The notes under the pieces were generated by a model. It was not told where the DNA came from, made no database searches, and was given only the letters and a program-made list of their open reading frames with translations. From NCBI RefSeq assembly GCF_014377975.1, contig NZ_JACMOO010000038.1, positions 1-47,768 on the forward strand: a stretch of DNA of 47,768 nt, given 5' to 3'. Of the stretch, positions 7,902-40,583 are shown one piece after another. The stretch comes from Ferruginibacter sp. (GTDB lineage Bacteria > Bacteroidota > Bacteroidia > Chitinophagales > Chitinophagaceae). The position numbers were made by a program, and so were the translations under genes. How positions within the stretch are numbered: position 1 is the first letter of the stretch; the number at the start of each line of letters is the position of its first letter.

Positions 7902-10900
7902 TTAAAATTGAATATTTCGGTTATTGCCTTTTGAATTGGTTACTGCTATTGACTTTATAAGACCATTTATTTGAATGGCTCTTGCTGATTGCGACAGGTA
8001 ACCATCTCCGTAATAAAACTCCTGCCGGGCTACGTGCCCATCTTTAAAAGTGATGGTTGCGTAAGCATCCAGCGGAGCTGCATAAAATATTTTTGCTGTT
8101 GCGTTTTTTGCCGGACATATTACTTTAAGGCTATCGCCATTTACTGCCACAATAATTATTTGGTTGCCCTTATTATCATACAAACGTGCAATACCCTTTG
8201 TATCGCCACTTAAAAACAAACCGCTTTGCTGTGGCGGCACCGCAGCAAAATTACCCTTGCCATCCCCTTTTAACAGTACTCCTAAAGAAGCGTCCATCCA
8301 GCCATATACCACTTCGCTGGAGTGCGTATTGCCCGCCACTATTAAATCTATATTGCCATCACCATCATAGTCGCTTGCCATAATGCCATTAATGCAGGAT
8401 AGCTGTGCTTCTACAGGCAATGGCCTGATAGCGAACTTTCCACCACCTTTATTTTCAAGGATGCAGTTATCAAAAAGATCTGCCTGAAAATGGGCCGCTT
8501 TTGCTAAAGCTTCCGGCTTAAAAATATCATCCAGTGTTGCGCTGCCAAATAAGCCGTAGTTCCAGAATTGCTTTTTTAATGCAGGCATCACCCTAAAAAG
8601 GTCATCCCGAAAACTGAATGGGTAACGCTTTTTTTCTCCGGCTTCATCCATGACGTAAGAAGACATGACCGCCTGCTTTTTTCCGTTACCAGCAAAATCA
8701 TCATAAAACAATTCCAACGGTTCATGCTTAGATGGCTTGTAATCGATATTGGTGCCCATATTGCCAATAATATAATCTATGTCCCCATCATTATCAATAT
8801 CTACCGGGTAGATGCTCGACCACCAGCCGTTTGTATTTTTAAGCCCGGTATACTTACTGATGTTTACAAGTTTACCCTTTTCATTTTTAAAAAAAGTGGG
8901 TGCCATCCACTCGCCCACTACAATCAAATCTACCCATCCATCATTATCAAAATCGCTCCATACTGCCGAGGTCACCATGCCTATTTCCATCAGTTCCGGA
9001 GCAATTTCCTGGGTAACGTCAACAAATTTTCCATGATCGTTTCTTAACAAATAACTACGCGGCGCCTGTGGATATGCTCCTGGTACAATACCACCCGCCC
9101 TGAATAAATCAATGTCGCCATCTTTGTCAAAATCAGCACCAACAATACAACTACCGCTGGATAATATTGGTGGCAATGCCTGTTCATTTTTAGTAAAGTT
9201 GCCCTTTCCATCATTGAGGTACAATCTATCCTGGTATGCGCCAGGCGCTTGTTTAAACTCATTGCCCCCGCTTACTACATACAAATCGTCATCTCCATCA
9301 TTGTCAGCATCAAAAAATAAAGATCCCATGTCTTCATGTTTTATATCTGCGGTATCTAATTTTTTTTGTGTAAAGATGCCAGTGTTTGCCAGCGTAAATA
9401 AAGTGCCTGCATTACCAACAGCACTTCCAATAAAAAATCCTGGCCCATTCCTGTCACCCACCCTTCCAACGGCAATACCTGGTCCTTTCTTTGAATAAAC
9501 GCCAGGCAACAAAGACCCTTCATTAAAGTTATTGTACCCGTTTCCGATATGCTTATAATGGATATTATACCGGCTGCCGGCTGCAACAAAGAAAGGTTGT
9601 TCAGTAAGATTCGGTGTCTGCTTTTCCTGAGCCATGCTGTACTCAATTTTTAATAACTGATTCACCTTTACATTCTTTAGCAGCTCTACCTTTCCATCTT
9701 GCCAGGTAATGATGGCTGAATCAACGATAGTATGTTTGCCAACTCCAAAATTAAGCGGCGCATTCATGCTGGACAGGTAGCCTTTAACAGGTGAATTGTA
9801 CGCATAGAATCTTTCGCTGCCACAATAAAGATTGATGGTGGCACCAATGCCATTTAGATTTTTATTGTTTCCCTTCAGTGCAATCTGCAGGTAATTATTT
9901 TTATCTTCTTTTTCGTTTGCTTTGTTTTCATATACCGATGCGGCTTCGTTGATATTGTTGGTTATTAAATCAAGGTCACCATCATTGTCAAGATCCGCAT
10001 AGACGGCCCCGTTGGAATAAGAAGCATTTTGTAAGCCCCATTTTTCTGTTACGTCGTCAAAACCTAAATGCTGATTGTTCCGGAAAATATAGTTGGATAT
10101 ATGTATTCCTTTCAATTTATCCAGCATATCTCTGGTACTTTTTATTTTGTTTTCCACGGTACCAAAAGTGTTATTATCCGCATTGTAACTTAAAAAATCA
10201 AGGTCGGTTATATTCTTTGCAAACCCATTGGTAACGTAGCTATCACGCCAGCCATCATTGTCAAAATCTGCCAGTAAAACACTCCAGCTCCAGTCTGTTG
10301 CGTTAACGCCGGCAAGCTGCGCAATGTCTGAAAAATAAGTAGTGCCTGTTGCATCGTTTCCCTGGTTCAACTGCAATGTGTTGCGCATATATTCATCTAC
10401 ATAACCAGCTTTTTGCCGCAACAAAAAATTCTCGTTATCCGTCCGCGCAATCATTGTTTTCCTGCGCTCGTTGTTTTGTGGCAACATATCCAATACCATA
10501 ATATCAGGCTTTGCATCGTTGTTAATATCAGCCACATCTACACCCATGCCATTGTAAGTCTGGTGCCGCATACTTTGTGCTGCGCATTCCTTAAAAGTTT
10601 TATTTTTTTGGTTGATGAGCAACTGGTCGTTTGGCATAAAATCATTAGAGGCGTATACATCGGGCCAGCCATCTCCATTGAAGTCTGCAATGGCCAACCC
10701 AAGACCATAACCTTCTTCGGTTACGCCTGCCTGTTTAGACACATTCCTATAGATAGGATGGCCGTCTGAGTCACCAATATTCTCATACAAGCGGTCGGCC
10801 GTGCGGCCTCTGGTAATGGGATAAGCAGACGGATTCACAAAAGTTTTTTCAACCCCATCCACATCATTTGTAAGCAGGTACATATCAAGGTCGCCATCCC

Positions 10901-24457: not shown

Positions 24458-26101
24458 TCATTTATTTATTACTCCGTCTATCAAAGGCCATTTATCAAAG
24501 TCCCTGTCAACCGATTTGCCATCAACTGCTTTAATTACCCATTTGTTATCGGATGCTAACAAATCATATTCAATACTATAACTTTCGGGCAAATTAAATT
24601 TTGTTCCCAATAATTTTGCATCAGCATTTGACTCTACTATTTTTTTTAAAAGTTGCTTTGGATCGTTTCCGGTTAAGAGGCAAATTATTCCACAGTGACC
24701 GGAAGAATAAACAGCAATAAAAATATTAGACTGGTAACTAAATATTTTCCAGTTTTCATTTTCAACTATCGGCTTATATTCTGCCGGAACAGATACCGGG
24801 CCAGCCGCACAGGCAAAATTCTGATATACACCCGTGTTGTTCCATTTCATAAAATCAGATCCGGGACCTGAGAGATGGAATGATTGGGACAAACTTTCTG
24901 TATGATCATCCAGAAAAAGCACAATGGGCCGGGCAACAATATCGGAAGCCTTTCCCCGGCTAGCTCCGCCTGCTGATAGTACATATTTTTTACCGGCAGA
25001 ATAAATTTCGGGACATGTTTTATCACCATGGCCAATTTTAATAAAATAGCCATCTCCTTTATCAGATAACAACTCCACCACTTTATCTGCCGGCCTGTAA
25101 GGCATACAGGAGCCTATGATGGCATGTACATCAGAACCATTTACATTGTGGCCTGGCGCAAGATTTGGCAGATAGGCCATCCATGATTTCATAAATACGG
25201 AATGATAGTCATTGGTTAGTTCACTAAAAGAAGCTTTATCATATCTTCTGCGCATGGGAGGATAGTGTTTAAACTGGTAACTGCCGATGGCATAGGTGTA
25301 GTTCATATAGTCCAAAACATCCCTTGCATCTTTCCGGATTTTTTCTGAAGCAAATGCTTCGAGGTTTAATAATCCTGTAATGGTATATCCTGTATAAGGC
25401 ATGGAATTAAATTCATATAAGTCAGCATTACGCATTTCATGGAGCAGTTCGGATAACTTCTTTTCCATTCCGTTGGCGATATTATCATACATCGGATTAT
25501 TGTTTCCCTTTGTCCGTTTCCATTGATTTTTTAAATAGCGGGAACCCTCTGTCATCAATAAATGATTTTCTGTTTCATCCACTATGCCGGCAGTGTTGGG
25601 TGTTTTGTAACGAAATTTTCCGCCTTCTTCAATCAGTAAAACATCTACCAGGTGCTGTGTGGTTTCAGGATATAAAATATGAGGCTGGTTGCCAAATAAA
25701 TATAAGATGGTGCAAAGTATTGCCATGGTAAAATCATAGTCACCCTTTTTATTCAGTGCCCATACCGAGCCCGTTACACCCCAGGGAAGGGTTTTAAGGA
25801 TGAGCGCATTTACTTCTGCAATATCCTTTTTCAACAAAAGTTTGCCTAGCATAATTCGGGGGGCGTTTACTTTACAGTCATCAGGGTTTAACGCACGGTT
25901 TGCCCAGGTTTGATAGATTGTATCTGCAAATACAGAATGCTGGTTCCATTTAATTTTTCTTTCAGTGGGTATATCAATATTGCCTTTCAGCAAATCGGCC
26001 CGGTGGCTTACATTCTGGCTGAAAAGAGAAATAGTAAACAAGCCGGCAGCGATGAATACTGCCAGTAAAATAAATTTGCGATTTTTTTTTCGTAGCATCA
26101 T
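24458..26101 (-). CDS. Secreted protein of unrecognised family (547 aa)
   Basis: I do not recognise this family. The N-terminus has one hydrophobic segment (FILLAVFIAAGLFTISLFSQ) that acts as a signal peptide or anchor. Residues 60-330 look helical with aromatic-rich loops (KTLPWGVTGSVWALNKKGDY, then MPYTGYTITGLLNLEAFAS and IGSYQFKHYPPMRRRYDKA), the general look of (alpha/alpha)-toroid enzymes such as polysaccharide lyases or family hydrolases. The last 200 residues look beta-rich (YVLSAGGASRGKASDIVARP, HLSGPGSDFMKWNNTGVYQN). The ATG overlaps nothing but directly abuts the stop of the upstream gene (TAA-ATG-ATG), so the two are surely one operon. A carbohydrate-active role is a guess from context. 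Confidence 0.85.
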   Translation of the reverse strand: MMLRKKNRKFILLAVFIAAGLFTISLFSQNVSHRADLLKGNIDIPTERKIKWNQHSVFADTIYQTWANRALNPDDCKVNAPRIMLGKLLLKKDIAEVNALILKTLPWGVTGSVWALNKKGDYDFTMAILCTILYLFGNQPHILYPETTQHLVDVLLIEEGGKFRYKTPNTAGIVDETENHLLMTEGSRYLKNQWKRTKGNNNPMYDNIANGMEKKLSELLHEMRNADLYEFNSMPYTGYTITGLLNLEAFASEKIRKDARDVLDYMNYTYAIGSYQFKHYPPMRRRYDKASFSELTNDYHSVFMKSWMAYLPNLAPGHNVNGSDVHAIIGSCMPYRPADKVVELLSDKGDGYFIKIGHGDKTCPEIYSAGKKYVLSAGGASRGKASDIVARPIVLFLDDHTESLSQSFHLSGPGSDFMKWNNTGVYQNFACAAGPVSVPAEYKPIVENENWKIFSYQSNIFIAVYSSGHCGIICLLTGNDPKQLLKKIVESNADAKLLGTKFNLPESYSIEYDLLASDNKWVIKAVDGKSVDRDFDKWPLIDGVINK

Positions 26102-27661
26102 TTAATATTGGGGTGTTAGAATAATCAGGGGTTGTTTTACATCCCAGTTGGGCGGAATTTGATAGGTAATTTTAAACATGTACGGATAGTATACAGTTGT
26201 TTCAACATTGTCTTGCACAGACTCCTTATCCATAACTTCTGCATTTATTCTATGCATAGTTGTTGTAACATTTATCTGCATAGTATCCAGATCCCACCTA
26301 TCCTCTTTAAAATTTTTCGGAAGTTTCGCATTCGCATACACCATTATTTCAAACGTTTTCGCCGATGTATCTGCCAGATAAATTTTCATTTGCTTTTCAT
26401 CCACCACCACATTGGTTTTACCTTCGCCAGGAACCATCAGCCAGCCAATATCATTGCCGGAAGAGCGCCAGTGCATGGTAGCGGTTCTTAAAATATGCGA
26501 TACTTTCCGGTTGCCCCATAAGCCACCCATCATCCATTTTGACTGAATATAAGCGGTTACTTTTTTTAGCCGGTCACCTTCATAATAATTGGAAGTAGTT
26601 CTCGACAAGAAACGGGGCGCTGTAAAATGTTTAAACTGTTCCAATGCTTTTTTAGGCATGGAAATACCGAGATCGAAAACGCAAACGATAAAGTTAGATT
26701 CATTGTGCGGACCTTCTTTTGCCGGTACTGTCGCAATGCGTGGATCATCTACTGCGGCTGCGATCCATACGCCAGCAATTGCTGTGTATTTCTTCATGTC
26801 CATACCATAACTTCTCAGGTAGGGACCACAAATATTTTGCAGATGGGCATTGTAAAACTGCGATAGGTCTAACCACAATTCTTTCTCCAGCACCTTACCC
26901 ATTTCTTTGAATTGAGGGGAAACAGACAATTCACGCCACATAGCTAAACCCGTAAAATCAACACCGTAGTAGGTGGGCGAATTGTATTCGCAAAGTGTAT
27001 TGTACTTCTGAAAATTGGCATAAATCTTCCTGGCTTTTTGTAAACCGGCGACCTGCATATCAGGCATATTGAACTTAGCTCCAACATAATCCTGCATAAA
27101 CGAACTCATGATGGCAATATTATTATAATCAGGATTTACATTCCGCTTTATATCTCCTTTTGCTGTAAGGATAAGACAGGTTTCTATCTCCTTTTTAAAA
27201 ACAGCGGAAAATTTATTTTTAAATTTTTCATAAATGGTAATGAGATCCGTGCCGATAAACTCCCGCATATTATCATCATAAGTCTTATCATTCACTGCTC
27301 CTTTAAACCCACCATATCGTTCATTGGCAAGGTCAGTATTCTGCATTGAAAAAACCCATCGCATAATAACCATCGCATTTTCAAAATCGCCCTTTTGGTT
27401 ACGAAAGCATAGCGCTTCTGCCAAACGCATTTTATTTCTGGTACCGGATTTCTCATTCAGCGTTGTTGCTACGGGTATTCCCTGGGGTAGCTCTTCCAAA
27501 ACAAAATCATCGAAAATCTTTCTTTGAAAATCACTCAGTGTGTTATATTCAAATTGTTTGGTGAAGAATTCATCCGCAACATCTGCCTGGCTGTAAATAC
27601 GGGAAGGCAACGCCAGTTGAAGTGCCAGGATAAGTACGGTAAAGAATGTCGCTTTTTTCAT
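26102..27661 (-). CDS. Secreted protein of unrecognised family (519 aa), possible (alpha/alpha)-toroid
   Basis: I do not recognise this family by name. It has a clear signal peptide (MKKATFFTVLILALQLALPS to about residue 25). Residues 70-300 look helical, with NPDYNNIAIMSSFMQDYVGA, LCEYNSPTYYGVDFTGLAMW and LRSYGMDMKKYTAIAGVWIA; the Glu-Tyr-Asn-Ser-Pro-Thr-Tyr-Tyr segment is a plausible active-site loop. Residues 340-519 look beta-rich (TTSNYYEGDRLKKVTAYIQS, TMHWRSSGNDIGWLMVPGEG). The helical-then-beta plan matches the general shape of several polysaccharide lyase families, and its downstream partner has the same plan. The GH3 relic lies just upstream on the same strand. An enzyme acting on glycans is inferred only from layout and neighbours. 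Confidence 0.87.
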   Translation of the reverse strand: MKKATFFTVLILALQLALPSRIYSQADVADEFFTKQFEYNTLSDFQRKIFDDFVLEELPQGIPVATTLNEKSGTRNKMRLAEALCFRNQKGDFENAMVIMRWVFSMQNTDLANERYGGFKGAVNDKTYDDNMREFIGTDLITIYEKFKNKFSAVFKKEIETCLILTAKGDIKRNVNPDYNNIAIMSSFMQDYVGAKFNMPDMQVAGLQKARKIYANFQKYNTLCEYNSPTYYGVDFTGLAMWRELSVSPQFKEMGKVLEKELWLDLSQFYNAHLQNICGPYLRSYGMDMKKYTAIAGVWIAAAVDDPRIATVPAKEGPHNESNFIVCVFDLGISMPKKALEQFKHFTAPRFLSRTTSNYYEGDRLKKVTAYIQSKWMMGGLWGNRKVSHILRTATMHWRSSGNDIGWLMVPGEGKTNVVVDEKQMKIYLADTSAKTFEIMVYANAKLPKNFKEDRWDLDTMQINVTTTMHRINAEVMDKESVQDNVETTVYYPYMFKITYQIPPNWDVKQPLIILTPQY

Positions 27662-28977: not shown

Positions 28978-30375
28978 TTATTGAATCATGTAGGTGTAAT
29001 AACCAGGGTTGTTTAAATATAAGGTGACGATATGTGTACCCGGCATTATGGCTCCTGAATGTGCAGGATCGCCAATATTATTACCGTTTACAACTAAGCT
29101 TCCCTTACCGGGATCGCCGTAATTTAAACCCCAGTCATTATTGGCTCTAAATTTAAATTGATCGCCGGCTGCGGTTGTTATTGTTGCAGTCCAGATATGA
29201 TTATTTGCATCGTACATCATTGGAATATCTTTACCCCAACTACTAGCTGCAAAACTGCCAATTAAACTCCAGGTTGTAGCAGTGGCCGACCAGGTATTTG
29301 CAACTGTATTACCTAAAATATGATAATATCCGCCAGCGGAAACAGCTAAGTTACCACCGCCCCCAGGTATCAGTGTACCGTTTCCACCATCGCCCAATGA
29401 ATTGCTCCAATCGGGTTTTGTGGTGAACTTAAAGGCATAACTACCGCCCGCAGGAATATTTACGTATCCATCAAAATTACCGTCATTTGCCGGAGCACCT
29501 AAAGCAGGTGCAGTTGCCGGTGTCCAACCCTGGTAATCGCCGGGCACATACAGCAATCCAAATAAACTTGCCTTGGTTACCGTAAAAATTCCATTCTGAA
29601 AATCTACTTTGATGGTATACATACCCGTAGCCGCAGGTGCAGGAATATTGGTATTACCCATATTTGCACCGAAAACACCCCCTTCGGAAATTTTAGGTAC
29701 AGAAGCGTCTGCAATATTATATTTATCATCCCATTTACCATTTACCGGTAACAATACATAACTATTACTACCATTTAAAAAGAAGGTTCCCTGGTAAGTA
29801 ACAGAATCAATCAATATAAATTGTTGCGCTACTACAGGCACCGGATTGCCCCATCCACCAGCAGTTGCATTACCAACTATAAATAACATTTTACCTGCCG
29901 GAGGCATTACTTTTGGTGGCGTAACATACGGCGTTACTTTTATTTTTACGATGTTGGATTGAAACTGGTCGTTGTTATTGCCATAAGAGGAAACCAGGCG
30001 TACATCTACATCGTAGGCTACATTAAACTTAAAACCCATCGCCAAAACAATGGCGTTTAATTCTTTTGCCGTGTAATTTGAGGTGCGTGATCCAATGATG
30101 GTTTTTGAGACTGCCTTAGAAAAATTTCTACCGGAAGAATCTATTTGAACCATGTATTTTATGGTGGAGGAATCGGTTGCATACTGCGGATTTGACCACA
30201 AAAAAGTAATTACATTTTTATTGGAATCTGCCGTAACCGGCGCAACTACATTTGTTGAAGCGCTTAAAACTGTGGCTGAACCATGGGTATAAAATGGCAA
30301 GGTATCTTTTTTACAAGCTGTAAAAAAAGCTCCTGTCACCGCCATGAAAAATAATATTTTTGAAAAATACTTCAT
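28978..30375 (-). CDS. SusE/SusF-type outer-membrane glycan-binding lipoprotein
   Basis: About 465 residues from the ATG at 30375 (an upstream TTG in frame is less likely). The signal peptide ends in a lipobox (AFFTAC). An N-terminal SusE domain (TFLWSNPQYATDSSTIKYMV, VMPPAGKMLFIVGNATAGGW) is followed by repeated beta domains of the SusE/SusF starch-binding type (YVPGDYQGWTPATAPALGAP with NDGNFDGYVNI; then LIGSFAASSWGKDIPMMYD and FKFRANNDWGLNYGD). Each repeat has the conserved Trp-rich glycan-contact pattern. It would display alpha-glucan-binding sites on the cell surface. It is the last gene of the sus operon, 45 bases after the shorter SusE-like gene, and ends at a terminator. Confidence 0.9.
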   Translation of the reverse strand: MKYFSKILFFMAVTGAFFTACKKDTLPFYTHGSATVLSASTNVVAPVTADSNKNVITFLWSNPQYATDSSTIKYMVQIDSSGRNFSKAVSKTIIGSRTSNYTAKELNAIVLAMGFKFNVAYDVDVRLVSSYGNNNDQFQSNIVKIKVTPYVTPPKVMPPAGKMLFIVGNATAGGWGNPVPVVAQQFILIDSVTYQGTFFLNGSNSYVLLPVNGKWDDKYNIADASVPKISEGGVFGANMGNTNIPAPAATGMYTIKVDFQNGIFTVTKASLFGLLYVPGDYQGWTPATAPALGAPANDGNFDGYVNIPAGGSYAFKFTTKPDWSNSLGDGGNGTLIPGGGGNLAVSAGGYYHILGNTVANTWSATATTWSLIGSFAASSWGKDIPMMYDANNHIWTATITTAAGDQFKFRANNDWGLNYGDPGKGSLVVNGNNIGDPAHSGAIMPGTHIVTLYLNNPGYYTYMIQ

Positions 30376-30444
30376 ATAGTTTTTTTTATTTGTGTACAAA
30401 CGAATAAAAGCTAGCAGCCATTATTTTAATAAGCAACTGCTGAA

Positions 30445-31275
30445 TTATAATTTGGTGAGTTTAAATTTTCCACGTTGAAAATCTACTTCAATTTTATAAT
30501 TACCGGATACCGGCGGAGCCAGAATATCATTACCCTGCCATTGAAAATCGCCTCCGTAAACTGTAGCAGGATCATTTTTTACAGCGATACTATATTTATA
30601 ATCCCAGGAGTTAAAATTTGAAAGAAAGGTGTAAGAATTACCACCAGAAATTGCAATACTGTTTAATACAAAATATGTTGGTGAAACCCTGGTAAATTGT
30701 TGCGAGGCCGGAGGATTATTTACCCAGCTACTTTGTACAGCACTTCCGGTTATATACAAGGTACCCGACGCAGGTGGTGTAACTTTTGGAGGTAATGAAT
30801 AAGGATTGGCTGTAAATTTCAACACATTAGAATATTGAATACCTGTGCTGTTTATCAAAAAAGATTTAACCCTGATTTCTATATTATGGGCTATGGAAGG
30901 CGCTAACTGCAATTGATTTAAAAGCAAGTCGTTAAAAGCAATTTGCGTAATGGATAGCGTGAGATCTTTACTTAAAGCAATCACTTTTTTATTTGGATTG
31001 GTAAAATTTGCTCCTGTAGTATCAATCTCTACCTGGTAAGAAACATCGTATGAACTTAAACCGGTATTGAATTGATAATTGGGGTTTGTCCAGCTTAAAT
31101 TTATTGCCTCATTAGCAGCACCTGCAAAACTAAGTGGGATTGCCGTAGCAGTTGCAGAAGATAAAACCGGTGCAGTTCCATTTTCGAAAACTACCCGTTG
31201 TTCGTCTTTTTTACAAGACCATAAGAGTGTTACCAGCATAAAAGCGGATATTAAAAGAAATGATATTTTTTTCAT
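30445..31275 (-). CDS. SusE-like outer-membrane lipoprotein
   Basis: A 276-residue lipoprotein (signal with lipobox LLWSC, Cys21). It has the SusE N-terminal immunoglobulin-like domain (INLSWTNPNYQFNTGLSSYD, VSYQVEIDTTGANFTNP) and a single C-terminal binding-type domain (GTLYITGSAVQSSWVNNPP, FKLTKL at the end). It is much shorter than the neighbouring 465-residue paralogue, which carries extra domains, so the pair is organised like SusE and SusF. It lies 20 bases after susD. The ATG start is clear. Confidence 0.9.
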   Translation of the reverse strand: MKKISFLLISAFMLVTLLWSCKKDEQRVVFENGTAPVLSSATATAIPLSFAGAANEAINLSWTNPNYQFNTGLSSYDVSYQVEIDTTGANFTNPNKKVIALSKDLTLSITQIAFNDLLLNQLQLAPSIAHNIEIRVKSFLINSTGIQYSNVLKFTANPYSLPPKVTPPASGTLYITGSAVQSSWVNNPPASQQFTRVSPTYFVLNSIAISGGNSYTFLSNFNSWDYKYSIAVKNDPATVYGGDFQWQGNDILAPPVSGNYKIEVDFQRGKFKLTKL

Positions 31276-31295: not shown

Positions 31296-32882
31296 TTAAT
31301 AACCAGGGTTTTGTTGCAGACTTGGGTTTGCTGTAATATCCGCAGATGGCAAAGGATAAATGTTTCTGAAATCATCTACCCCGGTGCCACCTGAAATACC
31401 CCCTTTAAAAGGCCACAAATAAGTAGCATTTGTAAACAAACCATACCTTATTAAATCGGTACGACGAAACCCTTCCCAATAAAATTCCCTTGCTCTTTCG
31501 TCTAACAAATTATTAAGGGTAAGGTCGGCTGCGGCCCAGTTTCCGCTTGCATTTCCGTAAGCCCTGGTGCGAACAATATTTACGTAATTTAATGCTGTGA
31601 CATTATCGCCACCTGCGCCACCTCTTAATACTGCCTCTGCATAAATTAAATACATTTCAGGTAATCTAAACACAGGAAAATCAATATCAACAAATGTTTG
31701 ATTAGATCCATTTGCGCCGGCCCTTGTTTTGTTTATGTATTTTACAATCATGTAGCCATCGGTAAAAACTGTTTGAGAACCTATCTCTAAATTTTGGCCG
31801 TTGGTATAAAATTGGGCCCGTAAATCAGGTGCGCCCACACCCGGAAATTTGTTTACCAATGCCTTTGTAGTACGCAAACCAGACCATGCATTGTCTACAC
31901 CATAATCGCTTGCTTTTGCTGTTCCGCCAATAGGTGCATGTGTTAAAAAAGTAGTACCACCATAATTCTGCGTATAGTTGCCATCGTAATTAATAGTAAA
32001 AATAAATTCGCTGGCATTTAAATTATTATCTGCTAGCATTAATTGACTGTACTGGTTTATTAAAGAATAACCGGCACCAATTACTTTTGAACTGTAGGTT
32101 ATTGCATCTGTACTTCTGTCTATACCCGTATACACTTTTGCATTCAGATAAATTCTTGCTAAAAGCGACCATACAGCAGCCTTATCAGCACGACCATATT
32201 CATTGGTTCTTGCAGCAGCTAAATTTGGTTCGATGGCTTTTAATTCGCCTTCAATCCAGGTAAATAATTCAGCACGGCTTTTTTGTTTTGGATAAGTTCC
32301 CTGCGCCACAGGTGTTTCATCAACAAAGGGAGGTTTAGCAAAAATATCCATCATTATAGCATACTGATAAGCCCTTAAAAAACGTGCCTCGTTTCTAAAT
32401 AATTTAACGCTGTCAGCACTTTGGCCGGTAATATTTTTCGAAGCAAGATTGGCATCGCTGGATTGCCTGATAAAGTCATTGGCAAGGGTAATCTGATAAA
32501 GACTACGATAATATAATCCAGTGATGAATGGGTTATTGGGTGTCCAAGCCATATTGTGAAAATCCTGGATACCGATATCACCCCATTGAATAACGGCTTC
32601 GTCAGTGGGTAATTCTTCTGCCTTCCAATACAACCTTAAAAAATCGGAGGTGCCTGCATCAATTCCTTGTATATCGCCGCTACCTGCACCATTACTACCC
32701 GTTGTAGCAAAACTGCCGTATACCTTTGCCAGTACTTGCTTATAGGCTGAGGTGCTTGTAAATAAATTGGTGCTGTTGGTACCATGAGTAGGTACAAGAT
32801 CCAGTTTTTTTGTACAGGAAGATAAACCCATCGCTACAACTCCAAAAAGCAGGAGCCTATTTATCATGTTCTCTTTTATCAT
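31296..32882 (-). CDS. SusD/RagB-family glycan-binding lipoprotein (PUL 2)
   Basis: A 528-residue SusD homologue with lipobox GLSSC (Cys23); a second ATG at 32867 (MINRLLLF) gives the neater signal peptide. TPR-type segments are visible (YYRSLYQITLANDFIRQS, NEARFLRAYQYAIMMDIFA, KAAVWSLLARIYLNAKVYTG), followed by the C-terminal family signature FPVFRLPEMYLIYAEAVLRG, LLDERAREFYWEGFRRTDLI and IYPLPSADITANPSLQQNPG. It partners the SusC encoded 31 bases upstream, and the amylase nearby points to starch-type glucan as ligand. Confidence 0.96.
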   Translation of the reverse strand: MIKENMINRLLLFGVVAMGLSSCTKKLDLVPTHGTNSTNLFTSTSAYKQVLAKVYGSFATTGSNGAGSGDIQGIDAGTSDFLRLYWKAEELPTDEAVIQWGDIGIQDFHNMAWTPNNPFITGLYYRSLYQITLANDFIRQSSDANLASKNITGQSADSVKLFRNEARFLRAYQYAIMMDIFAKPPFVDETPVAQGTYPKQKSRAELFTWIEGELKAIEPNLAAARTNEYGRADKAAVWSLLARIYLNAKVYTGIDRSTDAITYSSKVIGAGYSLINQYSQLMLADNNLNASEFIFTINYDGNYTQNYGGTTFLTHAPIGGTAKASDYGVDNAWSGLRTTKALVNKFPGVGAPDLRAQFYTNGQNLEIGSQTVFTDGYMIVKYINKTRAGANGSNQTFVDIDFPVFRLPEMYLIYAEAVLRGGAGGDNVTALNYVNIVRTRAYGNASGNWAAADLTLNNLLDERAREFYWEGFRRTDLIRYGLFTNATYLWPFKGGISGGTGVDDFRNIYPLPSADITANPSLQQNPGY

Positions 32883-32913: not shown

Positions 32914-35900
32914 TTAAAATCCAAGGTTAAAGCCTAAGGATAAAATCCGTGGCCTTGCATAAAAATTATTGTCTACCCCGTTGCCAATTTCCGGGTCGAC
33001 ACCTGTATATTTTGTGATGGTGAATACATTTTGCAGATTGACATTTACCCGCAGGTTTGCTTTACCATTGAACACTTTGCCAAAAGCATAACCGATATTA
33101 ATGATATCCATTTTTAAGAAAGATGCATTTTGCACATAATAATCAGATAAAAAATATTTATCACTGGCGCCTTTAAAATTGGTATATAAAACATCGGTAG
33201 AACCGTTTCTTAATACGGTATTATTGCTGGTAAATATGGAGCTGGTTCTGCCGTTATTGGCTGCACCATTATTGTAGATGTAGTTACCAATACTTGCACG
33301 CATTACAAAACCTGCGTTCCATTTTTTGTAACTGAAATTACTGTTGAAACCCATAAACACTACCGGATCGGCACTTTTATATTGGTACAAATCTTTATCA
33401 TTGATCACACCATCCCTGTTTCTGTCAACAAACATATCTTCAATTGGTTTACCTGCTGCATCATAAACCTGCTGGTAAACATAAAATGCTCCGCGAAGCT
33501 GATTAACAGAATTGATAAATAAAGTTGCACCGGTACCTGGTAAACTTGTTCCATCAGGATTGTATTTGTTACCGGGGTTTGCAGGGTCTGAAACAAAGGT
33601 TAATCTGGTAATTTTATTTTTATTATAAGCAATATTAAAACCCATATCTAAGGTAATATCTGTTGTACGAATAACCTGGGCATTAATATTAAGTTCTATA
33701 CCCTTATTCTCCATACTGCCAACATTAGATACATATTTATTAGCAGGATTGGTACCACCGGGTATGTCTACCTGGTTTAAAAGATCCGTTGTCTTTTTAA
33801 GATAAACATCTGCACTACCGGTTATGCGATTATTTAAAAATCCAAAGTCAATACCAGCGTTTGAGGTTGCTGTCTGCTCCCATTTAATATTGGTATTGTA
33901 GCCAGCCAGGGTATACCCTCTGTAAAAACTATTTCCAAATTGATATTGGGAATTAATATCTGTAGCAAAATAATTTATAACAGATGAGTAATTCGACAAC
34001 CCATCCTGCTGACCTGTTATACCATAGGCCATACGTAACTTAAGATCGGATAGAACGGAAGAGTTTTTAAGGAAAGATTCTTCTTTAATTTTCCAGGCAA
34101 TAGCACCGGAAGGAAATACACCATACCGGTTATTAGCAGGAAACCTGGAAGATCCATCCGTACGGATTGTACCGGTTAATAAATAACGCCCTTTGTAGGC
34201 ATAATTTAAACGACCATAATAAGACAATAAAGTATACTCTGGTTTATCGTATGGATATAACGGTTGTGCGCCTGTTCCGTTGGGCGTGCCATCTAAATAA
34301 TAACCCCTGTAATTATAAACTGTTTTTAAGAAATTTTGATAGGCATAACCACCAACCAAATCGATACGGCTGTTGATTGCTTTTAGATCTTTGCCATAAG
34401 TAAGGTAAAACTCCAATAATTTATTCGCACTTGTTTCGTGCCCCTTACTTTGATTTCCTCCATGAAATTTCCCATCAATAGGGCTAACACTACCAGAAAA
34501 TTTATAACTGTTAACTGCACTATCAGAAGAATAATAATTTTCTGTTCCCTGCGAAATATCATAACCAACATTCAGGATTGCATGCAGATCGGGTAAAAAA
34601 TGAAATTTATAATCTATCAATGCATTGCCAATACTGCGTTGAGAAACCGCTGTATGACTATTTTGATTTAATAAGCCAACAGGGTTGTTGGGTGCGCCGT
34701 TTCTTAAACCTGTGAAAGTATTAGAAAGTAAATCCTGATAATAACCACCATAGCGGCTATTGCCGGAATATATTGGTTGTGTAGGATTAAAACTCAAGGC
34801 ATTACTTACCAAACCATCAGGCGCATAATCGCTGTTAGAGCTGGATCCTTTAAGATTGATATCAACCTTTAAATGATCATTAAAAAAGTGTGGACTAAGA
34901 TTAAGGGAAGCCGCAACTCTTTTAAGACTATTATCTTTTTGAATACCATCCTGGGCATAGTAACCAACGGACGCACGATAAGGCATATTGCCCAATGCCC
35001 CACTAACACTAAAGTTATTATCTGTACCTAAAGCATTTCTATAAATCTGATCTTGCCAATCTGTATTTGCCATCCCTAAGGAAGGTATAAATGCCTTTCC
35101 ATCAGGATTTGTATTGGTAAGTGTTCTTAGTTGACCGGCTGTTAAAACATTCGCTTTTTTAATCAACATAGAAGCAGAGGCGAGTGTACTAAAATTAAAA
35201 ACGGGTTTACCTTTTCTGCCTTTTTTAGTGGTAATTAATATTACGCCGTTGGATGCCCTTGAACCATAAATGGCGGTAGAGGATGCATCTTTTAAAATAG
35301 TAAATGATTCAATGTCATTGGGGTTAATGGTAGATAAAAAACTTGGCGCACCTTTTACGCCACCATCTACATCAACGGGTACACCATCTATTACAATTAA
35401 TGGATTGTTACTTGCATTTAAAGAGGCTCCGCCCCTTATGCGGATAGAGCTTCCTGTACCAGGACCACCTCCATTAGAAATAACAGAAACACCTGCAGCC
35501 TTACCAGCAATCAATTGCTCCGGCGATGCAAACGAACCTTTATTAAAATCTTTGGCCGAAACGGTAGAAACAGATCCGGTAAGATCCTTTTTCTTTACAG
35601 AACCATACCCTACAATAATTACATCATTTAATTGCTGACTACTATTAACAAAACTAACATCTACAGTAGGTCCGTTGATGGCTTTTTCCTGACCAACAAA
35701 TCCTACCGATGTAAATACCAATGCAGTGGCACCGGCCGGAGCAGTTATTTTGAAACTACCATCAGGCATTGTTTGGGTTGATACCTTTGTACCCTTTACG
35801 GTTACCGTTACTCCTGATACAGGGGTATCATCTTTGGAGTTGCTCACCTTTCCGGTTAGCTGGTTTTGAGCAATGGCTGACATTGTTATCAGCATCACTG

Positions 35901-35958
35901 CAATTGTACCTGCAAAATAACGGGCAATTGTTGTAATTCTTTTTTTCATATTATGCAT
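32914..35958 (-). CDS. SusC/RagA-family TonB-dependent receptor (PUL 2)
   Basis: A 1014-residue outer-membrane receptor. An N-terminal signal (from the ATG at 35958, or 35949, MKKRITTIARYFAGTI) leads to a carboxypeptidase-like domain (QLTGKVSNSKDDTPVSGVTV), the SusC signature NDVIIVGYGSVKKKDLTGSV, the plug (LIAGKAAGVSVISNGGGPG, PLIVIDGVPVDVDGG, DASSTAIYGSRASNGVILIT) and a beta-barrel ending ILSLGFNLGF. It should take up maltooligosaccharides or similar glucans with its SusD. Two copies of a 19-bp palindromic element lie 150-192 bases upstream of its start, which suggests direct control by the regulator encoded just upstream. Confidence 0.96.
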   Translation of the reverse strand: MHNMKKRITTIARYFAGTIAVMLITMSAIAQNQLTGKVSNSKDDTPVSGVTVTVKGTKVSTQTMPDGSFKITAPAGATALVFTSVGFVGQEKAINGPTVDVSFVNSSQQLNDVIIVGYGSVKKKDLTGSVSTVSAKDFNKGSFASPEQLIAGKAAGVSVISNGGGPGTGSSIRIRGGASLNASNNPLIVIDGVPVDVDGGVKGAPSFLSTINPNDIESFTILKDASSTAIYGSRASNGVILITTKKGRKGKPVFNFSTLASASMLIKKANVLTAGQLRTLTNTNPDGKAFIPSLGMANTDWQDQIYRNALGTDNNFSVSGALGNMPYRASVGYYAQDGIQKDNSLKRVAASLNLSPHFFNDHLKVDINLKGSSSNSDYAPDGLVSNALSFNPTQPIYSGNSRYGGYYQDLLSNTFTGLRNGAPNNPVGLLNQNSHTAVSQRSIGNALIDYKFHFLPDLHAILNVGYDISQGTENYYSSDSAVNSYKFSGSVSPIDGKFHGGNQSKGHETSANKLLEFYLTYGKDLKAINSRIDLVGGYAYQNFLKTVYNYRGYYLDGTPNGTGAQPLYPYDKPEYTLLSYYGRLNYAYKGRYLLTGTIRTDGSSRFPANNRYGVFPSGAIAWKIKEESFLKNSSVLSDLKLRMAYGITGQQDGLSNYSSVINYFATDINSQYQFGNSFYRGYTLAGYNTNIKWEQTATSNAGIDFGFLNNRITGSADVYLKKTTDLLNQVDIPGGTNPANKYVSNVGSMENKGIELNINAQVIRTTDITLDMGFNIAYNKNKITRLTFVSDPANPGNKYNPDGTSLPGTGATLFINSVNQLRGAFYVYQQVYDAAGKPIEDMFVDRNRDGVINDKDLYQYKSADPVVFMGFNSNFSYKKWNAGFVMRASIGNYIYNNGAANNGRTSSIFTSNNTVLRNGSTDVLYTNFKGASDKYFLSDYYVQNASFLKMDIINIGYAFGKVFNGKANLRVNVNLQNVFTITKYTGVDPEIGNGVDNNFYARPRILSLGFNLGF

Positions 35959-36107: not shown

Positions 36108-36126
36108 TAATGTGTATTTTTTACAC
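36108..36126 (-). promoter_or_regulatory. Putative operator 1 upstream of susC (PUL 2)
   Basis: On the minus strand this reads GTGTAAAAAATACACATTA. It shares the pattern GTGT-N2-AA-N2-TACA-N2-TTA with the site at 36132 and with the one before the amylase gene, matching the amylase site at 15 of 19 positions. Confidence 0.6.
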
Positions 36127-36131
36127 TGTAT

Positions 36132-36150
36132 TAACATGTAAATTGTACAC
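36132..36150 (-). promoter_or_regulatory. Putative operator 2 upstream of susC (PUL 2)
   Basis: On the minus strand this reads GTGTACAATTTACATGTTA, 15 of 19 identical to the site before the amylase gene. Its start is 24 bases from operator 1, so two regulator dimers could bind nearly one face of the helix. Confidence 0.6.
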
Positions 36151-36412
36151 AATGTGTGTCGTTATTTTAAACTTTTATTATGTGCAGACAATTTAATTAT
36201 TTTATTAGCTGCATTTTATAAAAACATTTGTAGAAAAATATACTAATTATTTAATTTAGGTAAGAAAGATTTTGGTTTGAAGTAATATCATGTTAAATAA
36301 AACGAGTATGCATATTTTAATTCCGGCTTCGATAATTTATTTTTATATTATTCCCCTGTTACACATTACCAGAATAATTTGTTTTAAATGATATTTTATT
36401 ATTGAAAAAAAT

Positions 36413-37153
36413 TTAAAAATCTATACCGGTCCATTTTTTTTCTCTTTTAGAATATTTTTCATAATTAAATTTATATAATTTTCCCGGCCGGTGAGGCACA
36501 TCTTGTTCCATTTCATTGAGGTCGGTTAACAGATCCATGGAGAAGAATTTTTTTCTAAAATTTCTTCTATCCATTTTTAAATTTAAGATGGCTTCATATA
36601 AATTTTGCAGTTCGCGAAGCGAAAATTTTTTGGGTAATAAATTAAATCCAAGTGGATGCTCTTGTACTCTTTTTTGTAATTGCGTTAAACAGATATCAAA
36701 AATCTGCTGGTGATCAAAAGCAAGGTCTGTCACATTTTTTACATCATGCCAATGCAATTCATTGTCGAGTATATTTATTTTATGGTGCTGCACATTTATA
36801 AGCGAACAATAAGTTACGGTAACCACCCTGCCGGCAGGATGCCGGTTTACAGCACCAAATGTATGTACCTGTTCCAAATACACATCGCTTAAACCGGTAC
36901 GCTGTTTTAATATTCGGTAAGCAGCTGCATCCAGGTCTTCCTTCGGAAAAACCAAATCGCCCAGCAATGACCATTTACCGGCATACTTTTTTAAATCACT
37001 TCTTATCAACAATACCTTTAACTTATTTTCATCAAAACCAAAAATTACACAGTCTACAGAAAGTGCAATCCTATTAATATTCTCTACTTCAGATTGTATG
37101 GCATGTAATGATTTTGCATTTTTTGATGGCAACAATTTTTCATCTGTTATCAT
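36413..37153 (-). CDS. NUDIX-like sugar-responsive transcriptional regulator (NrtR/AraR type)
   Basis: A 246-residue protein with an N-terminal NUDIX fold (about 25-155; ALSVDCVIFGFDENKLKVLL, WSLLGDLVFPKEDLDAAAYR) and a C-terminal winged-helix DNA-binding domain (about 165-235; LLPKKFSLRELQNLYEAIL, KMDRRNFRKKFFSMDLLTDL). This plan matches the NrtR group, whose Bacteroidota members such as AraR control sugar genes. The catalytic NUDIX box is degraded: RILKQRTGL replaces the usual REL-EE-TGL, so metal-binding glutamates are lost and the domain should sense rather than hydrolyse. It lies between the amylase and susC, and palindromic sites stand before both of those genes, so it probably regulates them. 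Confidence 0.88.
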   Translation of the reverse strand: MITDEKLLPSKNAKSLHAIQSEVENINRIALSVDCVIFGFDENKLKVLLIRSDLKKYAGKWSLLGDLVFPKEDLDAAAYRILKQRTGLSDVYLEQVHTFGAVNRHPAGRVVTVTYCSLINVQHHKINILDNELHWHDVKNVTDLAFDHQQIFDICLTQLQKRVQEHPLGFNLLPKKFSLRELQNLYEAILNLKMDRRNFRKKFFSMDLLTDLNEMEQDVPHRPGKLYKFNYEKYSKREKKWTGIDF

Positions 37154-37359
37154 GTGTTGTTTTTTAGAATTAGATCACCAAACCATTCAGCCTAGCGTAA
37201 ATTAAACTGTCCTGCTTTATGCCAGACCACTTAAGTTTTCTTCACCTTAACCGAAATGCAGTAAGTTTCTATTTCCAGTTGATTAAACTATTTCTTACGG
37301 TATTGAGTTGAGATAAAAAATAGTTTGAGTGAAAATAGACTTCATTTATGCGCTTTCTG

Positions 37360-40300
37360 TTATTGCTTATTTTTTATAAAATGAAACACGTTTCCTTTGC
37401 CATTTTGCTCCAACCAAATAAAATAATTTCCGGTGGTTAACTCATTCAATTGATTTGGTAAAACCAACTGGTATTGACCCGGTGTTGCCATTCCACTGAA
37501 AAGAATTTTAAGCCGCTGTCCCAAAGGGTTTACAAGGGTTAGATTTACCATACCAGTTCCGCCAATAAAATAATCAATTACTACCTGCCCAATAACAGGA
37601 TTGGGCGTTAATTTAATGCCATATCCATCCTTTAAATTTCTGATAGCAGGAATATTGAAACCGGTAGTAAAATTAGACAGCACATAATTCGTAGCAGGCG
37701 TTGCAGTACAATTCGTGCTAACCCTCCAATCGTAATTTGTACCGGGCTTTAAATTAGATAACGTTATACTTCCAGTAGTAGTATTTTTAACTTCATTCAT
37801 CCATACTGTTGAGCCGGTTGGTTTAAAATCTACTGTATAAAATAAGCCATTTTGACTATTCCAGTTTAACGTGGTACTATTGTTAGTAATGTTGGAAACT
37901 AATAACCCCGATGGAGCCGGAACTGCATTGCAACCGGTTAAGCTTATGTAAACATGGTATTCGCCGGGTTGCAAAGTAATACTTTGAGTTGTACTGGCAA
38001 TATTAAAACTATCGGTTACTCCATTTATACCAGTGCCTGTTCCGTTTGCTACATAATTATACCAGCCATCTGCTTTTTGAAATGTTACGGTTCTTGTTTG
38101 AGCAACAACATCCATATTTGCCACTACAGTAACATTTATGCCTCCGGCGATGGAATCTGCAATTTGAAAACGCCTTACCAATCCACCGTTATCATTGAAA
38201 TCATAATTAAAAGTTGAATTATTAAATACAGATGGATTTGAAAGTCTGAGCTTAATAAGTTTTGCATAAACATTGTATAAATTGAGGCGATTTACATCAG
38301 CCATATATTCCCAATGCGGCGGTTTTGCTCCTGTTCTTGAGCCATCATTAATGCTGATATCATAACCTCTTTCGCCAAACTGCCAAAGTAATTTTGGACC
38401 CGGCACAGTAAAGAAAACTGCTGCAGCAGCAGCTTCCTTTTGTAAGGCCGTTGGTAAAGTTTTTACACTATATGTACCGGCGCCATTACCGTATTGCAAG
38501 TTTTTGTACATCAACCTTTCCTCATCATGACTTTCCATATAGCCCATTTCAGCGGGAGTTGTAAATGCCTCCTGCGGATCGTTATAAACAATTTTAGAAA
38601 AATCAGAATTACCTGCATACCCCATCGTAGCCTGGTTGTAGGCCCCGTTATTATTACCCCAAAGTAAGTATCCTTTGGCAGCATAAGCCTGTTCTTCCGT
38701 ACGTTGGACGCCTAAAAATTCCAGGATCATATACGTATCAGGATATGTAGCAATTACATGATCGTAATAGCGGTTTAGGTTTGCAACACGGCTGGCATCA
38801 TAATTTTCTACCGTTGTTCCATCGCTTTTCGTTTGAGTAAAACCCTTTGCAAGATCTAATCTAAAGCCATCTATTTTAAATTCCGACAACCAGTAATCCA
38901 TCGATCTTTCTACCAGGTATTGCGTTGCTGCTGAAGTATGGTTTAAATCATTAAAAACACTATAAGGATGCGGAGCATTCTGGTTAAACCAGGGACTATT
39001 TGCAGCAGGACCATTTGTGGCAGCATCCCAATATAATTTACCTTCGGAATTACTGTAGGCGTCCATTTGATTGTACACTACATCCATTATTACAGCGATA
39101 CCATTTTGGTGGCAGAGATCAATAAATTCTTTGTATTTATTTTTGGTTCCGTAAGCTTTATCCAGTGCGCAATAAAAAGTTGGATTATAGCCCCAGCTAT
39201 CATTTCCGCTAAATTCGCTTACCGGCATTAATTCGATGGCATTAATTCCGAGGCGTTTGAAATAACCAATTGTATCAATCAGCATCTGGTAATTACGGGC
39301 ATTTCCAAAGTCGCGTACCAGCAATTCGTAGGTTATCAGGTTACGTTTTTCCGGTCGTACATAATTGGTTTGCTTCCAAATATAAGCAGGTGCGCAAGGT
39401 TGCAGCACACTAACTATTCCATTTTTATTTGAAGTAACATTTGAATTGGTAGGATAAGGCATCAAATCAGGATAAGTAGCGGCGGGAATAGACGGATCGT
39501 TAAAAGGATCCAATATTTTTTCTGCATATGGATCTGCTATATAAATGGAGTTATCTACCAAATACTGATACGCATATTCGGTACCTGAAGTAAGCCCGGA
39601 AATGGTTAACCAATAGTAATTTCCATCGGGTGTTTTATTCATTTGAAATTGAGACTGCGCAAGCCAATTGCTGCCAGTAAAATCGCCGAGTACCACAGCG
39701 GAACTTTTATTGGGTGCAAAAAGTACTAAGGTTGCCGAACTGCAATCTGTACCATAATTAATACCTTCTGCAACACCTGCAGGCAATGGGGCAACGACCG
39801 CTGTTGGCGCAACATAAAATTTAGCCGAATCGTAATAACTAACACCGGCAATAACCAGTTCTGATACCAATACCTGGTTGCCGCTGGTAGTAATTATGGG
39901 GTTAGCGGTAATGGTATCTTTTGTAGTAATCGGACCGGCAACTTTTGTTCCGTTTAAATACATATTTAATGTACCTAAATTGGTGGAAGCCACAGCAGTT
40001 GAAGGTATAGCCTGATTAAGGGTGGCAACAACAGGCTCATGCGCAACAGTATAAAAAGGCAAAATATTAGGATGAATAATTTGAATATGATTGGATGCTA
40101 TGTTGTAGATGGGTACATACATATCTGAGCCATCGGCATTGCGTTGCACCTTGCTACCATCGGCAGTACGAAATAACAGGGCAATGCTTAAAATAGTTTC
40201 CCCAAAAGGCACACCGCCATTTGCGGAATTAAAATAGGTACGGGTATTTGGTATGGTAAAAGACCATTTATTATTACCCAATGAAGTTGCAACCGGAGCA

Positions 40301-40548
40301 GTAGTTGTTGCCCAGGTAGTGGGCGTATATTTCCAATCTTTTGAATCTTTGCTGGCACTTGTAATTATCCCGAAATGCAGGTAAATGGGAGTTGTAACGC
40401 CCATTAAACCCTGGTTACCTTGTGTAGCATCTACCGTAATTGTTATACTTGAAACATCTGAAGCAAATTGTGGAGACCAGGATAATAGTTGGGCACTTAC
40501 GGCAAAGCTTATAAATATAGTACTGATTGAAAGAATGATCTTTCTCAT
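37360..40548 (-). CDS. Secreted multidomain GH13 alpha-amylase with T9SS sorting domain
   Basis: About 1060 residues from the ATG at 40548 (MRKIILSISTIFISFAVSAQ is the signal; residue numbers here count from the open-frame start at 40596). Order: an N-terminal beta region that may bind starch, a CBM48-like domain (about 275-370; VLFAPNKSSAVVLGDFTGSN), a GH13 barrel (about 415-860) with nucleophile Asp581 in GFRLDLAKGF, acid/base Glu626 in MILEFLG and His690-Asp691 in MESHDEERL, then an FN3 domain (SGLLVSNITNNSTTLNWNS) and a C-terminal type IX secretion sorting domain (GIKLTPNPVIGQVVIDYF to the end). Region I reads DVVYNQ where DVVYNH is usual. It should cut alpha-glucans outside the cell. A palindromic operator-like site lies just upstream. 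Confidence 0.93.
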   Translation of the reverse strand: MRKIILSISTIFISFAVSAQLLSWSPQFASDVSSITITVDATQGNQGLMGVTTPIYLHFGIITSASKDSKDWKYTPTTWATTTAPVATSLGNNKWSFTIPNTRTYFNSANGGVPFGETILSIALLFRTADGSKVQRNADGSDMYVPIYNIASNHIQIIHPNILPFYTVAHEPVVATLNQAIPSTAVASTNLGTLNMYLNGTKVAGPITTKDTITANPIITTSGNQVLVSELVIAGVSYYDSAKFYVAPTAVVAPLPAGVAEGINYGTDCSSATLVLFAPNKSSAVVLGDFTGSNWLAQSQFQMNKTPDGNYYWLTISGLTSGTEYAYQYLVDNSIYIADPYAEKILDPFNDPSIPAATYPDLMPYPTNSNVTSNKNGIVSVLQPCAPAYIWKQTNYVRPEKRNLITYELLVRDFGNARNYQMLIDTIGYFKRLGINAIELMPVSEFSGNDSWGYNPTFYCALDKAYGTKNKYKEFIDLCHQNGIAVIMDVVYNQMDAYSNSEGKLYWDAATNGPAANSPWFNQNAPHPYSVFNDLNHTSAATQYLVERSMDYWLSEFKIDGFRLDLAKGFTQTKSDGTTVENYDASRVANLNRYYDHVIATYPDTYMILEFLGVQRTEEQAYAAKGYLLWGNNNGAYNQATMGYAGNSDFSKIVYNDPQEAFTTPAEMGYMESHDEERLMYKNLQYGNGAGTYSVKTLPTALQKEAAAAAVFFTVPGPKLLWQFGERGYDISINDGSRTGAKPPHWEYMADVNRLNLYNVYAKLIKLRLSNPSVFNNSTFNYDFNDNGGLVRRFQIADSIAGGINVTVVANMDVVAQTRTVTFQKADGWYNYVANGTGTGINGVTDSFNIASTTQSITLQPGEYHVYISLTGCNAVPAPSGLLVSNITNNSTTLNWNSQNGLFYTVDFKPTGSTVWMNEVKNTTTGSITLSNLKPGTNYDWRVSTNCTATPATNYVLSNFTTGFNIPAIRNLKDGYGIKLTPNPVIGQVVIDYFIGGTGMVNLTLVNPLGQRLKILFSGMATPGQYQLVLPNQLNELTTGNYFIWLEQNGKGNVFHFIKNKQ

Positions 40549-40560
40549 ATCGCAATGGTT

Positions 40561-40583
40561 TAATGTGTAAATTAAACACATTA
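40561..40583. promoter_or_regulatory. Putative operator upstream of the GH13 amylase gene
   Basis: A perfect palindrome with 8-base arms (TAATGTGT at 40561-40568, ACACATTA at 40576-40583) around seven A/T bases, ending 12 bases before the amylase ATG. Its 19-base minus-strand core GTGTTTAATTTACACATTA matches both sites before susC of PUL 2 at 15 of 19 positions. Its place in the leader fits a repressor operator. Confidence 0.62.

Follow-up and report, generated by a model that had tools for sequence, protein, structure and literature searches.

Predicted operators of an AraR-related Nudix regulator before amylase and susC genes of a Ferruginibacter genome

Introduction

The textbook regulator of starch utilisation in the Bacteroidota is SusR, a membrane activator. 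In this work we analyzed a 47,768-nt contig (NZ_JACMOO010000038.1) of a metagenome-assembled Ferruginibacter genome, the whole of which is referred to as the window. Three copies of a palindromic element lie there before a GH13 amylase gene and a susC gene, and they are predicted to be operators of a Nudix winged-helix regulator encoded between the two. Judged by comparison with related genomes, the predicted operator and regulon are well supported.

The closest described system is BtAraR (BT0354) of Bacteroides thetaiotaomicron (PDB 5bs6, 5dd4, 5ddg, 5deq), which, according to the accessible parts of PMC4666351, controls sugar-uptake genes including susC/susD-like operons. The operators printed there are GAGTGTATTTGATACACC and AAAGTGTTACTTTTACACCC at BT0356, with GTGT starts 24 bp apart, and AAAGTGTAAAAAAGACACTT at BT0365. 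The window regulator has the same combination of Nudix and winged-helix domains and most of the DNA-contact residues; the sites share the half-site GTGT, the N7 spacer and the 24-bp tandem step. It differs from BtAraR in sequence (39% identity), in belonging to a separate clade and in the replacement of Arg34 by Ser, Gly48 by Asp, Ser163 by Arg and Lys204 by His, while the operators carry a TGTGT flank in place of AGTGT and precede alpha-glucan instead of arabinose genes. XylR (BT0791), from the same phylum, is likewise an NrtR-family sugar regulator, set apart by a reported clustering with xylose genes (PMC3878776, PMC4666351). NrtR of Shewanella oneidensis (PDB 3gz5) also joins a Nudix domain to a winged helix, but its recognition-helix residues differ from those of the window regulator; the NrtR family is reported to control nicotinamide adenine dinucleotide (NAD) genes in response to ADP-ribose (PMC4666351). 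SusR of B. thetaiotaomicron controls a susCD-type starch system too, but is described in the accessible text of PMC3878776 as a membrane protein with a periplasmic sensor and as an activator, whereas the protein considered here is a Nudix winged-helix protein of 246 aa; a sequence relation between the two was neither sought nor seen. XylRA, in the part of PMC12125979 available, is an AraC/LacI-type Vibrio protein and is unrelated.

The regulator family and the motif core are therefore already known, and what is new is the alpha-glucan clade, its changed pocket residues and its changed operator flank. No Nudix/NrtR starch regulator, nor this clade with its specificity changes, was found in a literature search that left RegPrecise and most subscription journals outside. 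The original prediction, made from the letters of the window, knew of no description of this exact motif; since its core and 24-bp step are those printed for BtAraR (PMC4666351, in the text accessible), this holds for the flanks and targets only.

Three palindromic sites in the window

The sites lie where they had been predicted, at 36108-36126, 36132-36150 and 40561-40579 of the minus strand, and 13 of the 19 columns agree among the three 19-bp copies, namely the ten core positions noted originally plus TTA. The amylase copy had been described as a perfect palindrome. Its arms, TAATGTGT and ACACATTA, are indeed perfect over 8 bp, but the 7-bp centre is not symmetric and the 19-bp frame does not sit on the centre of symmetry, the full palindrome being 23 bp long with the core TGTGTA-N5-TACACA. 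In the susC copies the arms match at 6/8 (operator 3) and 4/8 (operator 2) positions (Table 1). One site stands just before the amylase gene, two sites 24 bp apart form a tandem pair before susC, and the gene order confirms that the regulator is encoded between both targets.

Loose matching did not set these sites apart. The originally proposed pattern, with up to two mismatches, gave 8 matches in the window against 6.8 expected, and a second loose pattern gave 16 against 18.8, both at chance level. The 23-mer with up to three mismatches was found 35 times in the same genome against 47 for a reversed control, again no excess, and at two mismatches loose matching there (214 versus 164) was at or near background. 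Therefore only the strict core and a weight matrix were used. The matrix was built from 132 sites of relatives (intergenic, at most one mismatch to the core), leaving out the window and C347, which is another contig from its assembly. It identified exactly three sites in the window, those of Table 1, and nothing else at 6 bits or above; order-2 random sequence gave 0.85 matches per window at the 6-bit threshold and no match at 14 bits. There is some circularity in the matrix, whose training sites had been selected by a core taken from the motif under study. This circularity was avoided by a pattern-free search, in which all 4-mer palindromes with spacers of 3-12 were compared upstream of genes chosen by homology alone. 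GTGT-N7-ACAC ranked first, being present in 37/58 amylase and 40/80 susC upstream regions versus 31/789 for other genes. Evidence beyond chance thus comes from the relatives and not from loose matching in the window or its genome.

Conservation and association with the regulator

Sequence computation shows where the sites lie, that they are conserved, that they go with the regulator clade and alpha-glucan genes, and that they match the BtAraR operators. The compared genomes probably belong to the Chitinophagaceae, since the best named matches are Ferruginibacter metagenome-assembled genomes and Ferruginibacter paludis CECT 8366. Eighty orthologue loci were taken among the better regulator matches in genomes of this family; genes in relatives were called as the longest non-overlapping open reading frames (ORFs), so that starts are approximate. 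These loci contained 42 exact cores, 41 of them intergenic, with intergenic DNA making up about 15% of the bases; the reversed pattern occurred twice. With up to one mismatch, a site was present before susC in 32/53 loci having that gene, before amylase in 23/39 and before the regulator in 8/78, and 55 of the 80 loci had an intergenic site. In a further set of 80 loci, reduced to 65 by dropping 15 identical to earlier ones, the matrix at 18 bits gave 61 matches versus 3 in reversed sequence, and sites of at least 18 bits preceded 19/21 amylases, 13/25 susC genes and 3/65 regulators.

The same association was seen across 195 family genomes. Of the 123 genomes having a strong orthologue, 88 carry the exact core, 245 times in total (reversed control 17); it occurred 13 times (control 3) in 7 of the 28 genomes with weaker relatives only, and 12 times (control 6) in 11 of the 44 genomes without a regulator match at 1e-20. 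Single sites fetched from three genomes of the last group (L157, L158, L160) were all inside ORFs. Tandem sites before susC were also present in C347 and in the Ferruginibacter loci L206, L208, L209 and L210. In F. paludis CECT 8366 one site precedes the amylase and three, spaced at 24 bp, precede susC. The row of three operators in exact 24-bp steps before susC is at 8830-8900 of the F. paludis locus L209, and L208 shows the same arrangement.

Outside the regulator loci, 40 remote places, a subset of the exact-core matches listed and all from strong-orthologue genomes, were inspected (L117-L156); gene classes were sorted by our own judgement and some of the genomes share a genus. The site was intergenic in 38 of the 40. 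Genes of alpha-glucan type adjoin 24 of them: 7 amylase/GH13, 6 GH77 with CBM20, 2 GH97, 2 GH31, 2 susC and 5 MFS transporter genes, three of the last also matching the MFS_2 sugar-transport model. Four more are near a phosphofructokinase, a DeoC/LacD-type aldolase, a ROK protein or a nucleotidyl transferase. In three loci of this sample (L123, L143, L141) the exact core precedes very large ORFs with no clear alpha-glucan link, two having PATR repeats and the third beta-propeller and PKD matches.

In the genome of the window itself, a second cluster was found on C347 (G000:C347, L005, 6173 bp), comprising the end of an amylase gene, a regulator 90% identical to that of the window, tandem sites 23 bp apart and susC. 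It may be a duplication or come from a contaminating relative; the contamination value given for the assembly is 7.09. Of the relatives examined in this genome, for GH97 (at 32% identity to the probe), GH77, MFS and GH13, none had a site of at least 5 bits within the fetched 3.4-5 kb. Apart from four places belonging to the two clusters, the core with one mismatch was found at eight others; six of these scored 9.2-13.3 bits and two less than 6, so that none reached the lowest training site (13.7 bits). In the search of own and related genomes that had originally been proposed, strict cores in relatives track the regulator and starch genes; the genome of the window shows the regulon at two clusters only. 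The regulon had been called local, which fits this genome, but in relatives it reaches beyond the local cluster.

The regulator and its predicted operator code

What had been noted as a NUDIX-like regulator does carry an N-terminal Nudix-like domain, but is better described as an AraR/NrtR-family protein with a C-terminal winged helix. Its three Pfam matches (Table 1) are above cut-offs and no other Pfam match was found; BtAraR (5bs6) is its best PDB sequence match. Read by eye, the Nudix signature GX5EX7REUXEEXGU is impaired, residues 60-95 (KWSLLGDLVFPKEDLDAAAYRILKQRTGLSDVYLEQ) lacking the REUXEE box. In a tree of 59 rows, which held BtAraR and about half of the orthologues and had long branches flagged, the orthologues including the window regulator formed one group (100/97), and BtAraR grouped with 14 of 16 paralogues (100/99). 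On these sequence comparisons the regulator is assigned to the NrtR family, near AraR but in a separate clade.

Residues were compared, in BtAraR numbering, among 79 orthologues and, for contrast, 16 paralogues. Of the DNA-contact residues, Arg180, Asn181, Arg183, Lys184 and Arg205 are conserved in 79/79 orthologues. The window sites and regulator thus combine the GTGT-N7-ACAC operator with the AraR recognition-helix residues, except that Lys179 is Arg in 78/79; His replaces Lys204 and Arg replaces Ser163 in 79/79, and Ala207 is Gly in 76/79. In the sugar pocket, Arg86, Phe129 and His131 are conserved in 79/79. Arg34 is replaced by Ser in 76/79 and by Cys in 3/79 (paralogues: Arg in 15/16), Gly48 by Asp in 78/79 (paralogues: Gly in 16/16), and Phe49 by Leu in 35/79, remaining Phe in 27/79. 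The arabinose-binding set of AraR, Arg34/Arg86/His131, is therefore altered at its first member and retained at the other two. BtAraR mutants R34N and F49Q still bound DNA with arabinose present (accessible part of PMC4666351), which together with the changes seen here makes a response to arabinose unlikely.

The operator flank differs as well. Among 82 intergenic GTGT-N7-ACAC sites of orthologue loci, T precedes GTGT on both strands in 62 and A in 1. The 14 AraR-like paralogue loci, a small sample, yielded 3 intergenic sites from two loci, all with A on both strands. In the BtAraR sites published in PMC4666351, one half reads AGTGT and the other either AGTGT or GGTGT, never TGTGT; in the crystal, Arg205, Ser163 and Ala207 touch the flank base. 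At the positions of Ser163/Ala207/Arg205 the orthologue clade has Arg/Gly/Arg. We consider it somewhat better than an even bet that an AraR-type lineage changed in both specificities: with Ser in place of Arg34 and Asp in place of Gly48 the pocket would have moved from L-arabinose to an alpha-gluco-saccharide, and a single symmetric base pair, TGTGT for AGTGT, would set the new operator apart. Two related repressors of one family would then share GTGT-N7-ACAC, be separated by that base pair, and one of them would run a starch regulon without SusR.

Among 395 genomes sampled from the phylum, no regulator match from beyond the order exceeded 48% identity. None of the 13 out-of-order loci checked (L299-L311) has the Ser/Asp pair; of four same-order loci, two have Cys/Asp. 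The paralogue loci L162 and L165 have L-arabinose isomerase (araA) and L167 has nicotinate phosphoribosyltransferase beside the regulator, so that AraR-like and NAD-type relatives are also present in the family. The protein of L167 (genome G067; NrtR-like gene at 7974-8651) is perhaps a true NAD-type NrtR, and several near-core sites of the TGCGTA/TACACA type lie upstream of genes next to it.

Proposed mechanism and alternatives

Our reading, to which we assign a probability of roughly 0.8, is that the three palindromes are operators of the Nudix winged-helix regulator encoded between them and serve sugar-relieved repression of the amylase-regulator and susCD-susE genes. The comparative evidence supports the original prediction of an alpha-glucan operator read by its neighbouring Nudix regulator. 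Binding, direction of control and effector are each what we infer. The ligand-free dimer most likely binds each GTGT-N7-ACAC site, with two dimers next to each other before susC at a step of 24 bp, and bound dimers most likely block transcription of both gene groups. Breakdown of starch or maltodextrin would bring a glucose- or maltose-type sugar into the cytoplasm; this would enter the Nudix pocket and turn the winged helices, and the DNA would be released.

The direction of control was considered from the promoter side. The consensus of the Bacteroidota promoter element is TANNTTTG. Matches to it were too few to place promoters, and only the shorter TTTG gave peaks: of the 18 upstream tandem sites, 9 have one starting 11 bp after the centre (mean per offset 0.21), and it begins 36 and 37 bp before the centre in 9 and 6 of 94 single sites (mean 0.93). 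A further peak at -10 was set aside, since the motif itself has a T-rich flank there. If TTTG is the -7 element, the sites overlap or follow the promoter, a repressor-like placement that these peaks suggest and do no more than suggest. Repression is favoured because BtAraR is a repressor relieved by its own sugar (PMC4666351, as far as accessible) and because of the TTTG in half of the upstream tandem sites.

The same operators and regulator could instead serve activation by the sugar-bound form. The promoter signal is weak and the direction of control inferred, and distances from single sites to ORF starts vary. Site centres stand at a median of 37 nt before amylase ORF starts and 54 before those of susC. 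Activation is nonetheless unlikely, given that BtAraR and NrtR are repressors (accessible part of PMC4666351), that operator 1 is so close to the inferred amylase start and that, going by the TTTG peaks, the sites may lie over or after the promoter. That the regulator is AraR or XylR itself, with a pentose as the true signal, would agree with the retained Arg86, Phe129 and His131 and the partly retained Phe49; we regard it as quite unlikely in view of the changes at Arg34 and Gly48, which the paralogues do not share, the separation of the clade from BtAraR, and targets that are alpha-glucan genes, araA standing beside the paralogues instead.

Another transcription factor, for example of LacI, AraC or Crp type, might read the sites and the Nudix regulator be a mere neighbour, as the cores in genomes with weaker relatives or no regulator match would allow. 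Cores nevertheless follow the regulator clade, the site geometry is that of the BtAraR operators, the recognition helix is conserved, and the Bacteroides Crp motif TATGTTnTAnAACATA given in the accessible text of PMC3878776 is different, which makes this very unlikely. Chance similarity in AT-rich intergenic DNA is a negligible prospect. It would explain why loose matching stayed at or near background, but random occurrence at AT-rich places, raised in the original prediction, is contradicted by the strict cores, their placement in relatives and the pattern-free discovery of the motif.

Several observations do weigh against our reading. The genome of the window, metagenome-assembled, shows the regulon only at two paralogous clusters. 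Even at two mismatches 17 of the 80 orthologue loci have no intergenic site, 35 of the 123 strong-orthologue genomes have no exact core, and the counts are not independent because the genomes are related. Twelve of the 40 remote sites have no clear alpha-glucan link, two of these being inside genes. Two cores precede an amylase in G190 (L159), which has a weak relative only, and L299, from outside the order and with other pocket residues, scores 18-19 bits with a mixed flank. The tandem step varies family-wide, 31 bp being commonest (5/18) and 24 bp found in 2/18.

If our reading is true, the alpha-glucan genes of an environmental family are under a soluble Nudix repressor, whose predicted targets are spread over many genomes. 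Altered residues in the protein, matched by an altered base pair in the operator, would be a compact case of related repressors gaining new sugar and DNA specificities.

Layout of the locus

The minus-strand order is operator 1, GH13 amylase, Nudix regulator, operators 2 and 3, susC, susD and two SusE-domain genes (Table 1). The regulator gene is on the same strand as the amylase gene, 206 bp downstream of it. The ATG at 40548 was taken as the amylase start, since it is followed by a signal-peptide-like stretch.

Table 1. Predicted operators and neighbouring genes in the window; bit scores are from the matrix trained without the window.
Feature	Position	Strand	Properties
Operator 1 (predicted)	40561..40583	-	TAATGTGT-N7-ACACATTA; 12 nt before inferred amylase ATG; 27.1 bits
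Operator 2 (predicted), upstream member of susC tandem pair	36132..36154	-	18.7 bits; strict core with two mismatches
Operator 3 (predicted), gene-proximal member of susC tandem pair	36108..36130	-	21.6 bits; centre 24 bp from operator 2
Nudix and winged-helix regulator, 246 aa, NrtR family	36413..37153	-	Pfam NUDIX, NrtR_WHD, AraR_C; PDB 5bs6 BtAraR, E 6.8e-51; tree
GH13 amylase, 1062 aa from inferred start	37360..40548	-	Pfam Alpha-amylase, fn3, CBM_48
susC-like TonB-dependent receptor	32914..35958	-	TIGR04056, 707 bits
susD-like lipoprotein	31296..32882	-	Pfam SusD_RagB; NF033071 SusD 403 bits, below model cut-off of 725
SusE-domain protein	30445..31275	-	Pfam SusE
SusE-domain protein with CBM48 match	28978..30399	-	Pfam SusE and CBM_48

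Downstream of the Sus-like genes, at 24458-27661, are two adjacent ORFs of 547 and 519 aa without a Pfam match at E 1e-3. In loci L037-L156, the sequence GATTGC was present within the last 60 nt before the start of 20/110 genes with an operator versus 14/493 others.

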